From a virus, in the IMG/VR virus record IMGVR_UViG_3300023174_000697, positions 1-21,922 of that record: a DNA stretch of 21,922 nt. One strand, 5' to 3'. Both the position numbers and the translations under genes were made by a program. Positions 4,065-21,922 of this stretch are shown one piece after another (positions within the stretch are counted from its first letter, which is position 1; each line of letters starts with the position of its first letter). The notes below the pieces were generated by a model that did no database searches, had not been told where the DNA came from, and saw only the letters and a program-made list of their open reading frames with translations.

Positions 4065-4309
4065 TGTGTTTTATTCTTTCCTAAGTATGTTCCATATAGT
4101 GATAATTGAAATTCAAAAATTTCTTTCTCGTGGTTGTAAAAGATTGTAAAATCTGGGTCAAGATCTAACCTAGGTGCGTACCCAGTTAGAATCATTTCAG
4201 TTTTTAACAGTCTAACATATTCTTGTTTTAGCCTTGATATTGCAGCTTCGTCGTGAATGATGCCATCTAAACCAAACCTCTTGATTGATTTATGATGCTG
4301 ATTTTGCAT
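3983..4309 (-). CDS. Small protein of unknown function between helicase and primase genes
   Basis: 108 aa, not recognised as a named family. The first third is helical and charged (DEAAISRLKQEYVRLLK, about 21-37). The middle reads GYAPRLDLDPDFTIFYN followed by EIFEFQLSLYGTYLGK, which looks like a run of beta strands. The end is lysine-rich and polar. I see no zinc ligands, signal peptide or membrane segment. It starts 12 bases after the helicase stop, and its last 27 codons overlap the start of the primase gene, so the three are surely co-transcribed. The sequence before the ATG is TATAATGGAGT: this contains a GGAG but only one base from the ATG, and also a perfect TATAAT five bases upstream. 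A replication accessory role is guessed from position only. Confidence 0.8.
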   Translation of the reverse strand: MQNQHHKSIKRFGLDGIIHDEAAISRLKQEYVRLLKTEMILTGYAPRLDLDPDFTIFYNHEKEIFEFQLSLYGTYLGKNKTQWITGIDGTKIVPTHKNKSKESLQDQA

Positions 4310-4314
4310 ACTCC

Positions 4315-4320
4315 ATTATA
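4315..4320 (-). promoter_or_regulatory. Possible -10 element (TATAAT) close to the start at 4309
   Basis: A perfect TATAAT ends five bases before the ATG at 4309, in the 12-base gap after the helicase stop. There is no TG extension and no convincing -35. It resembles the -10 elements found just before starts at 7031, 9118 and 21639, but here a GGAG also lies between it and the ATG. Chance occurrence in AT-rich DNA is quite possible. Confidence 0.25.
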
Positions 4321-6066: not shown

Positions 6067-6588
6067 TTAAATACTTTCAGACCAAACAGGAACAAACCTG
6101 CCGTCTTCAGTTCTCGTATATGTCAGTATACCATCTCCCATGCGTCTTGTCAACTCTTGTGGCGAAGGCGTAATGTCGTTAGTAACCAACTTGTCTTTTC
6201 TTGGTCTACCAATGTGGTAGGTAGCAAGTATATCACGAATGTCACGCACCTGTGATTCTGAGTAATAACATCGAACCTGCCAGCCACGCTCTCCGCCCTT
6301 CTGAGCACCCATTGGCTCAGGTATTACTCCACGTTTCATCAGGCTTGGCATATACTTTTTATGCCTGTTTACTAGAATTGCTGTTTCTCCTACTGTATAG
6401 GCTCTTTCACGATTACGCTTAAAATCTGTAACTAAACAGCTCTCTACCTGATCTTTAATAATATTGTATACAGACATAATTCCGTTAGACCTATTAAAGT
6501 GGTAGATGCGAACAAGGTCACCATTTAAAAACCAAACTTTTTTGCTGCCTGGGATTATTTGGGCAGAATTATAAGTGTCTCTGTCCAT
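6067..6588 (-). CDS. MerR-like helix-turn-helix DNA-binding protein
   Basis: 173 aa. Residues about 64-120 resemble a MerR-type winged HTH: YTVGETAILVNRHKKYMPSLMKRGVIPEP for the HTH and first wing region, then GWQVRCYYSESQVRDIRDIL, which matches the MerR pattern R-Y-Y-S-E-x-x-(V/L)-x-x-(L/I). The first 60 residues (VWFLNGDLVRIYHFNRSNG and onward) are not MerR-like and may be a separate small domain. The C-terminal part contains GRPRKDK, an AT-hook-like basic patch, and ends in VPVWSESI. No effector-binding domain or long dimerisation coiled coil is obvious. The ATG overlaps the stop of the last tail gene (TAATG). Its position between tail and replication genes suggests a role in controlling the switch between these blocks. 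The fold call is good; target DNA is unknown. Confidence 0.78.
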   Translation of the reverse strand: MDRDTYNSAQIIPGSKKVWFLNGDLVRIYHFNRSNGIMSVYNIIKDQVESCLVTDFKRNRERAYTVGETAILVNRHKKYMPSLMKRGVIPEPMGAQKGGERGWQVRCYYSESQVRDIRDILATYHIGRPRKDKLVTNDITPSPQELTRRMGDGILTYTRTEDGRFVPVWSESI

Positions 6589-7031
6589 TAGACAGGTAAG
6601 CCAACAGCAATAATATTTACAGACATTCCAGAAACATCTCCAGCTTTTTCAAACTTTACGAATCCCTTAACCTGGCTAGTTGTTACTGAACTAATTACAG
6701 CGTAAACATTTTTGTTTGCAGCAGTTGCTGTTCCATCTAAAATTGGAGACACAGTAACCACTGGTGGATATCTAAACGAAATATCAAAGTCGTAAATAAA
6801 TTCTTTGTCATCGTTTGCTTTTACTGAAGCACCAAGATTAAGGGTTGCTCGACCAGTAATAATCTTTGTTTCTGAAACTCTTATCTGTTTGGGACCTTCT
6901 TTTGTCCACAAAGATGCATATGCAGAAACATTTACTGCAACCTTATCCCATAGTGCATTAATTGATTCTGTTATTTTATATACAAAAGAAATGTCAAATG
7001 GTTGACCACGCTGAGGTACTGGTAATTTCAT
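6588..7031 (-). CDS. Probable tail-tip / virion-associated beta-rich protein
   Basis: 147 aa, composed mostly of alternating beta-type segments. It starts with KLPVPQRGQPFDISFVYKITESINALWDKVA, then beta stretches including FIYDFDISFRYPPVVTVSP and a C-terminal SGMSVNIIAVGLPV. It has no cysteine, membrane segment or enzyme motif. The general layout (short helical neck, then a small beta domain with FRYPPVVTVSP and a hydrophobic final strand) is that of small receptor-binding or decoration proteins at a tail tip; this is inference. It is the last gene of the tail block. There is no Shine-Dalgarno before the ATG: the upstream bases are TGCTATAATAGAATT, which suggests a leaderless transcript starting at the ATG. 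Confidence 0.72.
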   Translation of the reverse strand: MKLPVPQRGQPFDISFVYKITESINALWDKVAVNVSAYASLWTKEGPKQIRVSETKIITGRATLNLGASVKANDDKEFIYDFDISFRYPPVVTVSPILDGTATAANKNVYAVISSVTTSQVKGFVKFEKAGDVSGMSVNIIAVGLPV

Positions 7032-7037
7032 AATTCT

Positions 7038-7046
7038 ATTATAGCA
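7038..7046 (-). promoter_or_regulatory. Extended -10 (TGCTATAAT), likely leaderless promoter for the gene starting at 7031
   Basis: The minus strand reads TGC-TATAAT, a perfect extended -10, followed by six bases (AGAATT) and the ATG at 7031. RNA polymerase usually starts 6-8 bases after the -10, so the transcript would begin at or next to the ATG. No Shine-Dalgarno is present and no good -35 is seen. The element lies in the 15-base gap after the previous stop codon. Confidence 0.5.
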
Positions 7047-7511
7047 CTAAATCGTGAATGCGTTGGACTCTCCAAGTAAAAGATTGTTGTTTTCTTCTGT
7101 AACAAGACCTGCAACTTGAACCTTAAACTTTATACGATTTGTTCCAGCTAGTTTAAAAACTGTTGCTGAAGAAATACTAACCGTATCTAGAAACTCATAA
7201 GCAGTATATGTTGATCCACCATTTGTAGACCATCTTACAAAAATGTCATATAGTGGTCTGTAAGAGGATGTTGTTGGTGTCCATTGAAGAGAGATAACAC
7301 TGCTATCTATCGATGCTGTCATTTGAGAAGTTGTTATTGGTAATACAGCTGGAATTTTTTTAGCATCTATATCTAAGTATGGAGACCATGAAGATTTCTG
7401 TGATCCATCTTCATTAGAAACTCTAAATCTTAATACATACTTATTGTTTTCATCAACCTTCTGCAAGGACTCTTGCTGGATAGAAACAATTTTGATATCT
7501 TCGGTAGCCAT
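7047..7511 (-). CDS. Tail protein with fibronectin type III-like domain
   Basis: 154 aa. A first beta segment (KYVLRFRVSNEDGSQKSSWSPYLDI, about 24-48) is followed by a domain from about 65 to 154 that looks like fibronectin type III: SSVISLQWTP, YDIFVRWSTNGGSTYTAYEF, then FKLAGTNRIKFKVQVAG, in the usual strand order with a conserved W and Y. Such Ig/FN3-like domains are common on phage tails and virions and often bind carbohydrates weakly. The ATG is embedded in the stop of the preceding tail gene (GTATAATGG), with a short G-run as a weak ribosome site, so translation is probably coupled. It belongs to the group of small tail-tip proteins after the two large baseplate genes. Virion location is inferred from context. 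Confidence 0.75.
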   Translation of the reverse strand: MATEDIKIVSIQQESLQKVDENNKYVLRFRVSNEDGSQKSSWSPYLDIDAKKIPAVLPITTSQMTASIDSSVISLQWTPTTSSYRPLYDIFVRWSTNGGSTYTAYEFLDTVSISSATVFKLAGTNRIKFKVQVAGLVTEENNNLLLGESNAFTI

Positions 7512-9118
7512 TATACCCCCACGTTTAGGTCAAGATTGAATTTGGCTTCAAATATGTTTGCGGAGTTGACCTCTTTAAGAATTGGTTTATTTGATTCATC
7601 TTGAACTGGAGAGTATGAGACCATTCCATAAATAGGGTTGTTTTCTCTATCTCTGTTATTTTCAAATCTTAATCCATCTAGTGCAACGTAGTATGATCCG
7701 TCTGAATATTGCACTACCCCATTTGGAGAAACTGCTGTGCTGCCAACATTTGCTGCCGTTACAGCATAGGATATAGTGTTAGTTATTGTATTAACATTTG
7801 TGGCTGAGAATGTTCCATTAAATGTTGCATCTACACTACTTACTGTAAACATCTGACCAACAATCATTTTTGGAGTAGTGCTTGTTGTGATTGTTGCAAT
7901 ATTATTGGTTAGCGACTTAGTTGTTACAGCAAGGTTTGCTGTTGGTACAGACACAAAAATTTTAACAATATCTACGGTTGCCCAGTTAAATCCAGAACTC
8001 TTTTTAAAGTCTCCCAAAGATAGGGTTTTTGTAAAATAGGTGTTGTTGCTAATGTAATCAGCTGAGGAAATGGTGAACTGTGCTTTTGCAAAGTCAGATC
8101 CTACGCCAGACTCTGTTTCATCAGAGCCGAACTCCATGAGGATATGCAAGTTTGCTGGAACTGAGGATGCTGGGTCTACTAGCAAAACAGACATTGCAAG
8201 TTTAATTTCATCGGATGAAGCATTCTTATCAAATGGATATTGCTTTCCAATTAAGTGAATATGTGGTTGAGCCAGTGCTACGTTTGAAGACGTATATGTT
8301 GCTGTCCAAATTCCATTAGCTGGTGTTGTGTCTATTCTAGACATTCCAGTAGATAAGGCAATTGATGCTTGTAGTAATCTTGGTTTTTCATTTTTAATTA
8401 CTGAAGATCTAGCTGCATTTTCAAATACTGGGTTTGTATTGTCAATACCGAAAACTACACCTGTTGCATTAGTATCAATAACCCCTGTACTATTAGCATA
8501 TATTGTTGTAGTTGGAGTAGATATTGTGGTTGCTTGGGTAAGTCCGTGATACTCCCAGTTTTCTGCCGTTGTAAAGTTATTTATAATTCTACTATCTATT
8601 CCAGAAGCAGTTGGATTTGATCCTGAAGAAAAAATTCCAGCCTCAGTTATTAAGTATCTTTCCTGAGATGGCAAGTCGCCAGATAAGATAACATTTGTTA
8701 CACCAGTTATGGTGTTTTGCTCAAATGTCCTAGATGTAATTGGGACTCTAAACATTTCAAAATCAAGAACTTCTTTGTTTTTAAAGTTAAGAACTGCAGT
8801 TCCAGAAATATTTTGTGATGCAATATTTGCGGCAGTTTTATCAACTGTGAACCAGTCTGTGCCTACAGGACTTTTTACTGTGTAAGTTCCATTAATAGAA
8901 AGAACGTTGCTAGATATTGTTACTAAGTCCCCAGGCAAAAATGGGTGTGCATTTGCAGCAACGTTTGCAACATTAGTTGTAATTGAATAAGAAGTAACAG
9001 CGTCAGAGTATGCAGTTCTTGGTCTTGACCCACAGCCGATTGCAATATACGATGCATATGCTGGTGCTTGATCGACCAGGTATTTTGCAATAATTGATTG
9101 CCCAGTAGTTGTAATCAT
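7511..9118 (-). CDS. Minor tail / baseplate protein with two inserted beta modules
   Basis: 535 aa. The start (MITTTGQSIIAKYLVDQAPAYASYIAIGCG) and the segment LDFEMFRVPI followed by ERYLITEAGIFSS have the feel of phage tail-fiber or baseplate proteins that share an N-terminal attachment domain. The middle (SAIALSTGM... HIHLIGKQYPFDKN... LHILMEFGSDE... NTYFTKTLSLGDFKKS) is beta-rich. Two copies of a roughly 70-residue module interrupt the core: residues 43-111 and about 402-470. The sequence resumes after the second as DGSYYVALDGLRFEN. No catalytic motif is visible. The ATG has no Shine-Dalgarno; instead TACAAT and TATAAT lie close upstream, overlapping the stop of the previous gene. Role as a tail-tip structural component is likely; receptor binding is possible. 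Confidence 0.8.
   Translation of the reverse strand: MITTTGQSIIAKYLVDQAPAYASYIAIGCGSRPRTAYSDAVTSYSITTNVANVAANAHPFLPGDLVTISSNVLSINGTYTVKSPVGTDWFTVDKTAANIASQNISGTAVLNFKNKEVLDFEMFRVPITSRTFEQNTITGVTNVILSGDLPSQERYLITEAGIFSSGSNPTASGIDSRIINNFTTAENWEYHGLTQATTISTPTTTIYANSTGVIDTNATGVVFGIDNTNPVFENAARSSVIKNEKPRLLQASIALSTGMSRIDTTPANGIWTATYTSSNVALAQPHIHLIGKQYPFDKNASSDEIKLAMSVLLVDPASSVPANLHILMEFGSDETESGVGSDFAKAQFTISSADYISNNTYFTKTLSLGDFKKSSGFNWATVDIVKIFVSVPTANLAVTTKSLTNNIATITTSTTPKMIVGQMFTVSSVDATFNGTFSATNVNTITNTISYAVTAANVGSTAVSPNGVVQYSDGSYYVALDGLRFENNRDRENNPIYGMVSYSPVQDESNKPILKEVNSANIFEAKFNLDLNVGV
7709..7915 (-). repeat. Beta module copy B in the 535-aa tail protein
   Basis: Residues about 402-470. Key elements are SLTNNIATITTS, IVGQMFTVSSVDATFNGTF, an N-T-I-S-Y-A-V strand, then AANVGSTAVSPNGVV. 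It shares with copy A (residues 43-111) the order N-x-A, G-(D/Q)-x-(V/F)-T-(I/V)-S-S, N-G-T-(Y/F), a final strand, and A-A-N. The repeat is seen at protein level; DNA identity looks low. Confidence 0.6.
8786..8992 (-). repeat. Beta module copy A in the 535-aa tail protein
   Basis: Residues 43-111: SYSITTNVANVAANAHPF, LPGDLVTISS, INGTYTV, DWFTVDKTAANIAS, ISGTAVLNF. It sits in a loop between the conserved AIGCG block and the LDFEMFR block. See copy B (7709-7915) and a more distant copy in the large neighbour (11945-12150). Confidence 0.6.
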
Positions 9119-9122
9119 ATCT

Positions 9123-9136
9123 ATTATATTGTACCA
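9123..9136 (-). promoter_or_regulatory. Overlapping -10 elements before the start at 9118
   Basis: The minus strand reads TGG-TACAAT-ATAAT-AGAT-ATG. TGGTACAAT (9136-9128) is an extended -10 ending nine bases before the ATG, and TATAAT (9128-9123) ends four bases before it. The same TGGTACAAT stands before the gene at 21639. No Shine-Dalgarno is present. The TATAAT includes the TAA stop of the preceding gene. Confidence 0.4.
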
Positions 9137-20904: not shown

Positions 20905-20930
20905 TGTTTCCTCCTTGTTAGGCTTATTAA

Positions 20931-20939
20931 ATTATATCA
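20931..20939 (-). promoter_or_regulatory. Extended -10 promoter (TGATATAAT) for the short chaperone and tape measure
   Basis: The minus strand reads TGA-TATAAT, a perfect extended -10, in the 45-base gap between the two chaperone genes. A weak -35-like TCGAAA lies 18 bases upstream. The transcript would start near 20924, leaving a leader of about 20 bases that contains AAGGAGG (20916-20910). Confidence 0.5.
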
Positions 20940-21639: not shown

Positions 21640-21645
21640 ACATCT

Positions 21646-21654
21646 ATTGTACCA
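21646..21654 (-). promoter_or_regulatory. Extended -10 (TGGTACAAT), likely leaderless promoter of the long chaperone
   Basis: TGG-TACAAT is followed by six bases (AGATGT) and the ATG at 21639, so transcription should start at or beside the start codon. It lies directly after the terminator's T-run, meaning the gene needs its own promoter unless termination is leaky. No clear -35. Confidence 0.55.
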
Positions 21655-21690
21655 AAAACAAAACTGCCCAGAGCCGAAACTCTGAGCAGT
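21652..21690 (-). terminator. Intrinsic terminator after the major tail protein gene
   Basis: On the minus strand an 11-bp stem (ACTGCTCAGAG / CTCTGGGCAGT, one G-T pair) closes a six-base loop (TTTCGG; 21679-21674) and is followed by TTTTGTTTTT. It starts 15 bases after the stop codon of the upstream gene. It probably insulates the highly made major tail protein from the less needed chaperones. Confidence 0.85.
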
Positions 21691-21705: not shown

Positions 21706-21922
21706 TTATGATGCGAGTGTGCGATCTACAATCTTTCCATAAGACGCATTGTCGTTAGGAAGAAGTCTAAATGAGACTTCGAACATTGTAGCTTCGTCAC
21801 GCTTTGCTGATACTGTAACACTCTCGATTGAGAGAGCACGGTAAGCAACATAGATTCGCTCAATTGATGAACCAGCTGCACAGTCTCCTGTACCTGGACC
21901 AACTGCAACGAGACCACGCTCA
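21706..21922 (-). CDS. Probable major tail protein, C-terminal part only
   Basis: Only the last 71 codons are in the window; the gene continues past 21922. The translated end includes GLVAVGPGTGDCAAGSS, IERIYVAYRALSIES, VTVSAKRDEATMFEVSFRLLP and YGKIVDRTLAS before TAA. Codon choice is different from the low-GC tape measure, with more C and G at third positions, which fits a highly expressed gene. It sits just upstream of the tail chaperones, the standard site of the major tail tube gene, and is followed by a strong terminator. The beta-type alternation suits a tube protein. The call is from order and C-terminal style; another abundant virion protein cannot be excluded with so little sequence. 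Confidence 0.7.
   Translation of the reverse strand, partial: ERGLVAVGPGTGDCAAGSSIERIYVAYRALSIESVTVSAKRDEATMFEVSFRLLPNDNASYGKIVDRTLAS

Follow-up and report, generated by a model that had tools for sequence, protein, structure and literature searches.

A terminator packed against a leaderless-type promoter precedes a fused gpGT-like tail assembly chaperone gene with a separate short copy in relatives of Streptomyces phages

In phage lambda the short and long forms of the tail assembly chaperone, gpG and gpGT, are needed at a ratio of 30:1, which is obtained by a −1 frameshift, and the G–GT frameshift is reported to be widely conserved among long-tailed phages (PMC5009743). Two-gene chaperones are described for some T4-like phages (PMC10885494, from Vladimirov et al., 2022, Virology). 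For Gordonia phages of cluster DJ the only chaperone candidate is described as having no slippery site, so that other groups without the frameshift may exist (PMC12859696). Leaderless actinobacterial promoters carry TANNNT just before the start codon (PMC3898074), and leaderless promoters have been predicted in cluster O mycobacteriophages (PMC4351075). The terminator and the leaderless promoter are thus known as kinds of element, and short-plus-fused chaperone genes are known in T4-like phages. A two-gene solution with opposite start signals in relatives of Streptomyces phages was not found in the open-licence literature searched, and within that literature the arrangement reported below appears to be new.

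The window is the whole 21,922 nt stretch of IMG/VR virus record IMGVR_UViG_3300023174_000697 (positions 1 to 21,922); the coordinates of the features are collected in Table 1. Both the long and the short proteins match phrog_10504 at residues 1–99, and the second part of the 229-residue product matches phrog_10474. The short gene begins 45 nt after the stop codon of the long gene. The two genes lie just upstream of the tape measure gene and encode short and long forms that share an N part; in lambda too the N and N+T forms are encoded between the tail tube and tape measure genes (PMC5009743). In Targaryen and Karp, both phages of Streptomyces, each part has an ORF of its own; the ORFs differ in frame, carry the annotation tail assembly chaperone and lie between the major tail and tape measure proteins. 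The nearest named relatives of the long gene were found in 127 Streptomyces phage records, none of which holds 80% of the protein in one place; Targaryen and Karp, the two that were opened, belong to the Stanwilliamsviridae. Pfam gave no family for the long protein. Its fold model is poor (pLDDT 65), and a structural search with this model gave no PDB match at E 0.001. In a scan of cellular genome contigs none of 148 pattern matches was confirmed as a relative. Relying on how the genes of Streptomyces phages are annotated and on the order of the genes, we call the long gene a putative gpGT-like tail assembly chaperone. The upstream gene matches phrog_2175 'protein with Ig domain' (E 1.7e-8) and is probably the major tail protein, judged by its position and by the gene annotated as such at the same place in Targaryen and Karp. 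Its stop codon is 66 nt from the next start.

Table 1. Features of the chaperone locus and its flanking genes in the window, with the Targaryen element for comparison.
Feature	Position	Strand	Basis or remark
Upstream gene, 3' end, open at window edge	21706..21921	−	Major tail protein by position (probable)
Intrinsic-terminator hairpin, 16 pairs (7 G–C), UUCG-type loop	21694–21659	−	Terminator scan, folding
Terminator T-run	21658–21654	−	Sequence; last T shared with the TG of the extended −10
Extended −10 TGG-TACAAT, TGGTACAAT	21654–21646	−	TGG 21654–21652, TACAAT 21651–21646
Discriminator AGATGT, six bases	21645–21640	−	Sequence
ATG of long chaperone gene	21639–21637	−	No Shine–Dalgarno upstream
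Fused long tail assembly chaperone (putative), gpGT-like, N+T, 229 aa	20950..21639	−	PHROG matches, N and T in one frame
Short gene extended −10 TGA-TATAAT	20931..20939	−	Just behind stop of long gene; TATAAT 20936–20931
Short gene Shine–Dalgarno AAGGAGGA	20909..20916	−	Duplex −11.2 kcal/mol with general 16S tail
Separate short tail assembly chaperone (putative), gpG-like, N only, 105 aa	20587..20904	−	Paralogous to the long protein's N part
Tape measure protein, 1845 aa	15025..20562	−	PF10145 PhageMin_Tail E 4.5e-25, position, length
Targaryen unfused chaperone gene promoter element, TGATATAAT

A preliminary description of this DNA had reported a terminator, its T-run, an extended −10 and an ATG six bases later with no Shine–Dalgarno (SD) sequence. 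All of these were found, on the minus strand, which the description had left unnamed, and we confirm that they abut one another. Its remark that the T-run doubles as the region upstream of the −10 is literally so, because the last T (21654) is the T of 'TG'. It had missed what the gene is, that a second, short copy exists and that the leaderless start goes together with a lost frameshift. The element is a GC-rich hairpin followed by a T-run and then TGN-TANNNT, placed for a start at the start codon and without an SD. The fold of 91 nt around the hairpin has an energy of −28 kcal/mol against −15.2 ± 2.5 kcal/mol in 200 shuffles, none of which folded as well (z −5.1), and its stem is the longest among the 18 terminator-like sites listed for the window. 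Terminator-like sites of any strength occur in the window at about chance level (9 against 6.9 and 9 against 7.0 expected). The pattern TGN-TANNNT-N6-ATG is mildly enriched, with four copies against 1.53 expected and 2 of 100 shuffles reaching four. The site at 21654–21646 was not among the output of a −35/−10 scan of the window, and other starts of the window do have an SD, for example AAGGAGG before 20904. Taken alone, the evidence in the window is moderate and would not prove a promoter; it is the conservation among relatives that decides the case for one.

A first scan for relatives gave 64 loci, 60 of which had upstream sequence (L051, L057, L062 and L064 lacked it and were left out) and were reduced together with the window to 24 representatives. 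Three further scans brought the total to 230 loci; two of these scans took the best 80 of 554 and the best 80 of 101 relatives. Of the contigs behind the 230 loci, five fused and one unfused are counted twice. The final representatives, less than 85% identical over the 60 nt upstream, were 62 fused long genes (window included), 74 short genes and 29 unfused genes. Scoring was based on an anti-SD tail, a promoter consensus and a rule for slippery sites. SD energies were computed against the general 16S tail, from which the anti-SD of the host may differ.

In 50 of the 62 representatives the −10 of the long gene stands 6 nt from the start; the gap is 7–9 nt in 11 others and reaches 15 nt in L047. 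TANNNT at a gap of 6–9 nt was found in 61/62 and TGN before the −10 in 60/62. Just one of the 62 (again L047) is preceded by an SD duplex that reaches −5 kcal/mol, and one of 165 before dereplication. The 60 nt upstream of position 1501 in L047 contain the −10 at 15 nt and an SD-like GGGG, a combination seen in this fused representative only; the locus is possibly a short-leader intermediate. In the upstream profile the TG and −10 columns are conserved and the letters of the discriminator weakly so; the length of the discriminator is kept. A terminator-like hairpin was found in the 60 nt before the −10 of the long gene in 56/62, always at most 17 nt away, by a test that includes a T-run directly behind the stem; 2 of 1240 shuffles, which keep base composition but not dinucleotides, passed. 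The same test before the −10 of the short gene gave 1/74 (shuffles 3/1480). Among 17 sequences chosen by hand because their stems are similar, 12 of 15 pairs have changed on both sides with pairing kept; this alignment was cut from 20 to 17 rows of the 62 by removing L220 (wrong coordinates), L108 (misaligned) and L017. No −35 is kept at the long gene in the 62 fused representatives: the best match to TTGACA averages 1.9 of 6 against 2.5 at random positions, and for the short and unfused genes the average is 2.9 against 2.5. The packing of a terminator against a leaderless-type promoter at the next start codon, which the preliminary description had read from one sequence, is borne out in that the spacing and the −10 are kept although stems and discriminators differ.

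The fetched loci are of two kinds. Among the 230, 163 have a fused N+T gene plus a separate N gene, 61 have an N gene with T in the −1 frame, and six are cut by contig ends (three fused, three N-only). As in the window, N and T are in one frame in 166 of 230 loci, 163 with a second N and three without. A short N-only gene lies downstream in every one of the 163 fused loci that do not run into a contig end, and the 61 unfused loci have a leader and a single N gene with no second copy. The distance from the long gene's stop to the start of the short gene is 26–83 nt (median 48) in the 161 fused loci for which both starts could be called. The short gene has an SD of −5 kcal/mol or better in 72/74 and a gap of never less than 13 nt; the two short genes without such an SD, L146 and L247, look by eye like mis-called starts. 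Its −10 is TATAAT in 73/73 scored, compared with 24/62 for the long gene. Profiles were calculated without the short genes of L044, L146 and L247 and the unfused gene of L194, and the hexamer table without L044. When the two −10 boxes of the same locus were compared with TATAAT in 60 fused loci, that of the long gene was poorer in 37, equal in 22 and better in one (L044, where the promoter of the short gene had been missed by the parser). A terminator-like site between the long and short genes was found in 0/73 tested, so that the short gene could be read from both promoters and the long gene from its own.

Nearly all fused, unfused and short genes have similar extended −10 promoters, and the position relative to the start is what separates them. 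The −10 lies within 9 nt of the start in 61/62 fused genes, 0/29 unfused genes and 0/74 short copies. For the unfused genes the gap is 18–37 nt in 29/29, with an SD of −5 kcal/mol or better in 23/29 and of −3.8 kcal/mol or better in 29/29. In 26 of the 29 the heptamer G GGA AAC/T or C CCA AAC/T is found at codons 98–101, where the −1 frame opens toward T; the other three, which are Streptomyces-like, have CCCGGAA at that place. The unfused locus L065 has a textbook G GGA AAC at 1797–1803, from which the −1 frame leads into the T part. Heptamers of the GGGAAAC/CCCAAAC type were found at codons 85–130 in 0/62 fused genes, a search for a conserved slippery site within the fused gene found none, and the clade of the window lacks the usual frameshift signals. 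Other X XXY YYZ heptamers, mostly A or T runs, occur at codons 85–130 in 18/62 fused genes, and X XXY YYZ heptamers occur in 5/74 short genes (one CCCAAAG, the others TTTAAAT); these leave slipping in fused or short genes formally possible. The terminator lies within 17 nt of the −10 in 17 of the 29 unfused representatives, which keep their leader; in four Streptomyces-type unfused genes the hairpin is 30 nt from the −10, and no hairpin was detected in 8/29. Because the packing is common to the fused genes and to 17/29 unfused genes, it is probably not tied to the fusion; the leaderless start is. No intermediate between fused and unfused was seen among the sampled loci (the best 80 of 554 and the best 80 of 101 in two scans); as these are the best-matching loci, intermediates may have been missed. 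What the comparison of related sequences shows is that the elements exist and are conserved, that the two parts are fused and a second copy is present, and that a leaderless start goes with the fusion.

The locus differs from lambda gpG/gpGT in that the clade of the window has two genes and 0/62 fused genes keep G GGA AAC or C CCA AAC/T; the unfused relatives resemble lambda in having a slippery heptamer, with the T part in the −1 frame (PMC5009743). Like the T4-like two-gene chaperones (PMC10885494), to which we liken it by arrangement alone, it has a short gene and a fused long gene; it belongs to another phage group, however, its copies are adjacent, and the start signals on the two copies are opposite. 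As in actinobacterial leaderless promoters, the −10 lies about six bases before the ATG, with no −35 and no SD; unlike those, it abuts a terminator, and TGN is present in 60/62 compared with 7% of the conserved M. tuberculosis TANNNT motifs (PMC3898074). Targaryen and Karp also have a terminator-like hairpin and an extended −10 promoter before the chaperone gene, but their hairpin is 30 nt from the −10, there is a leader with an SD, the parts are in two frames and there is no second copy. Related phages would be split into frameshifters and two-gene users, with the start signals swapped as well (leader and SD in the former, leaderless in the latter). For annotation, the lack of a joined chaperone gene in a genome of this group need not be an error.

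We think it probable that the terminator and the leaderless start of the GT gene, together with a separate G gene, provide much G and little GT without a frameshift. The element would end the transcript of the upstream gene, probably encoding the major tail protein, and a new leaderless mRNA would begin at, or immediately beside, the A of the long chaperone's start codon. The extended −10 would be used without a −35, the terminator occupying the place where a −35 would lie. The short form would come from the second gene, with its consensus TATAAT promoter, leader and strong SD. The predicted outcome is an excess of G over GT, the imbalance for which lambda and many other long-tailed phages use the −1 frameshift; frameshifting would have been replaced by two genes, the long form being made from a leaderless, often weaker start, and control of the presumed G:GT ratio would be the reason for that start. 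The earlier suggestion that a 'weaker' transcript restarts here finds indirect support with respect to the next, short gene only, in a −10 that departs from TATAAT in 38/62 long genes against 0/73 short genes, a poor −35 and the missing SD. If the proposed reading holds, the locus offers a natural experiment in which a stoichiometry once set by ribosome slipping was re-encoded in promoters and start sites.

A leaderless start need not be weak. A leaderless reporter is reported to be made as well as its SD pair in M. tuberculosis and better in M. smegmatis, and 10-fold less in E. coli (PMC8485053), and extended −10 promoters are described as the more active ones in M. tuberculosis (PMC3898074). 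Nor need it concern dosage, since leaderless starts precede other genes of these phages. It is conceivable, if rather unlikely, that such starts are a house style: the terminator and promoter would be real, the missing SD would have no dosage meaning, and the ratio would be set otherwise, by protein turnover or mRNA decay, or not at all. The frequency of leaderless starts in related records, another such start in the window before 7031, the good translation of leaderless mRNA possible in mycobacteria (PMC8485053) and the 22 of 60 loci in which both −10 boxes match equally well all agree with this, but the near-perfect split of the −10 position between fused genes on one side and unfused genes and short copies on the other does not. 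We regard as improbable that the hairpin is not mainly a terminator, with the long gene read through from upstream and the hairpin protecting a 3' end or tuning read-through. In favour of this, the window has a UUCG-capped stem of high stability, and its long ORFs are all on one strand (minus); however, the T-run behind the stem is part of the test passed by 56/62, and if the mRNA were read through, the ATG of the long gene would lack an SD and follow a stop codon at a distance of 66 nt.

That a hairpin with a T-run came to lie beside an AT-rich −10 lookalike by chance could be entertained from the window, which is AT-rich, has promoter-like and terminator-like sites at background rates and shows just a mild enrichment of the 18-base pattern. 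It is hardly credible given the relatives, in which the spacing and the stem pairing are kept with changed letters, and a chance origin was rejected as contradicted by this comparison. The most daring reading is a direct hand-off, in which the polymerase that ends the tail tube transcript would slide 5–17 bp to the extended −10 and restart there leaderless, coupling the genes. Re-initiation at nearby promoters after intrinsic termination has been described in vitro with E. coli polymerase (PMC6978380). A hand-off would explain the distance of at most 17 bp between terminator and promoter in 56/62 fused and 17/29 unfused genes, and would make GT output a fixed fraction of tail protein output; we nevertheless consider it a long shot.

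The history of the fusion was examined in trees of the N and T parts. The N-part tree was calculated from 99 rows and 100 columns after removal of near-copies at 80%, and its bootstrap had not settled; L146 and L247 were left out, as were L113 and L130 (too short). All 37 short copies fall together (100/98) and form a larger group with five unfused contig relatives (100/99). The 54 fused N parts lie on one side of a weakly supported branch (78/50), next to three of Streptomyces type. In the T-part tree, for which the bootstrap had likewise not settled, only the Streptomyces type is set apart; the fused contigs are intermingled with the unfused ones, without resolved branches. On the N-part tree, one duplication would be the most economical account. 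The trees are compatible with unfused contig relatives that are ancestral or reverted, and with more than one number and order of conversions.

Leaderless starts elsewhere were counted in five related records, namely G001, G005 and G006 (fused), G007 (unfused) and Streptomyces phage Targaryen, using ORFs of at least 50 codons. Before ORFs, a gap of 6 nt is the commonest for TGNTA[TCA]A[AC]T, with 8, 11, 10, 7 and 4 cases in that order. The reversed motif gave 1, 0, 0, 0 and 1, but is also the less frequent of the two by a factor of 1.4 to 2.6 (25, 48, 28, 33 and 19 copies against 65, 74, 56, 45 and 29). A terminator close upstream of a leaderless start is rare (1/14, 1/15, 2/11, 0/10 and 2/6), and three of these six cases are the chaperone locus itself. 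The leaderless start is thus common in these phages, and the packed terminator and promoter are special to few places.

In the window a second leaderless-type start is located at 7029–7046 on the minus strand, where TGCTATAAT is followed by six bases and the ATG of a 147-residue ORF (6588–7031) that gave no PHROG match. At 4310–4320 (minus) a TATAAT lies 5 nt before the start at 4309, with GGAG in between. Overlapping TACAAT/TATAAT boxes are found at 9119–9136 (minus) before the start at 9118. The 535-residue ORF beginning there (7511–9118, minus) gave no tblastn match at 1e-5 among annotated phage records and has a weak match to the tail-protein family phrog_9983 (E 1.5e-6).
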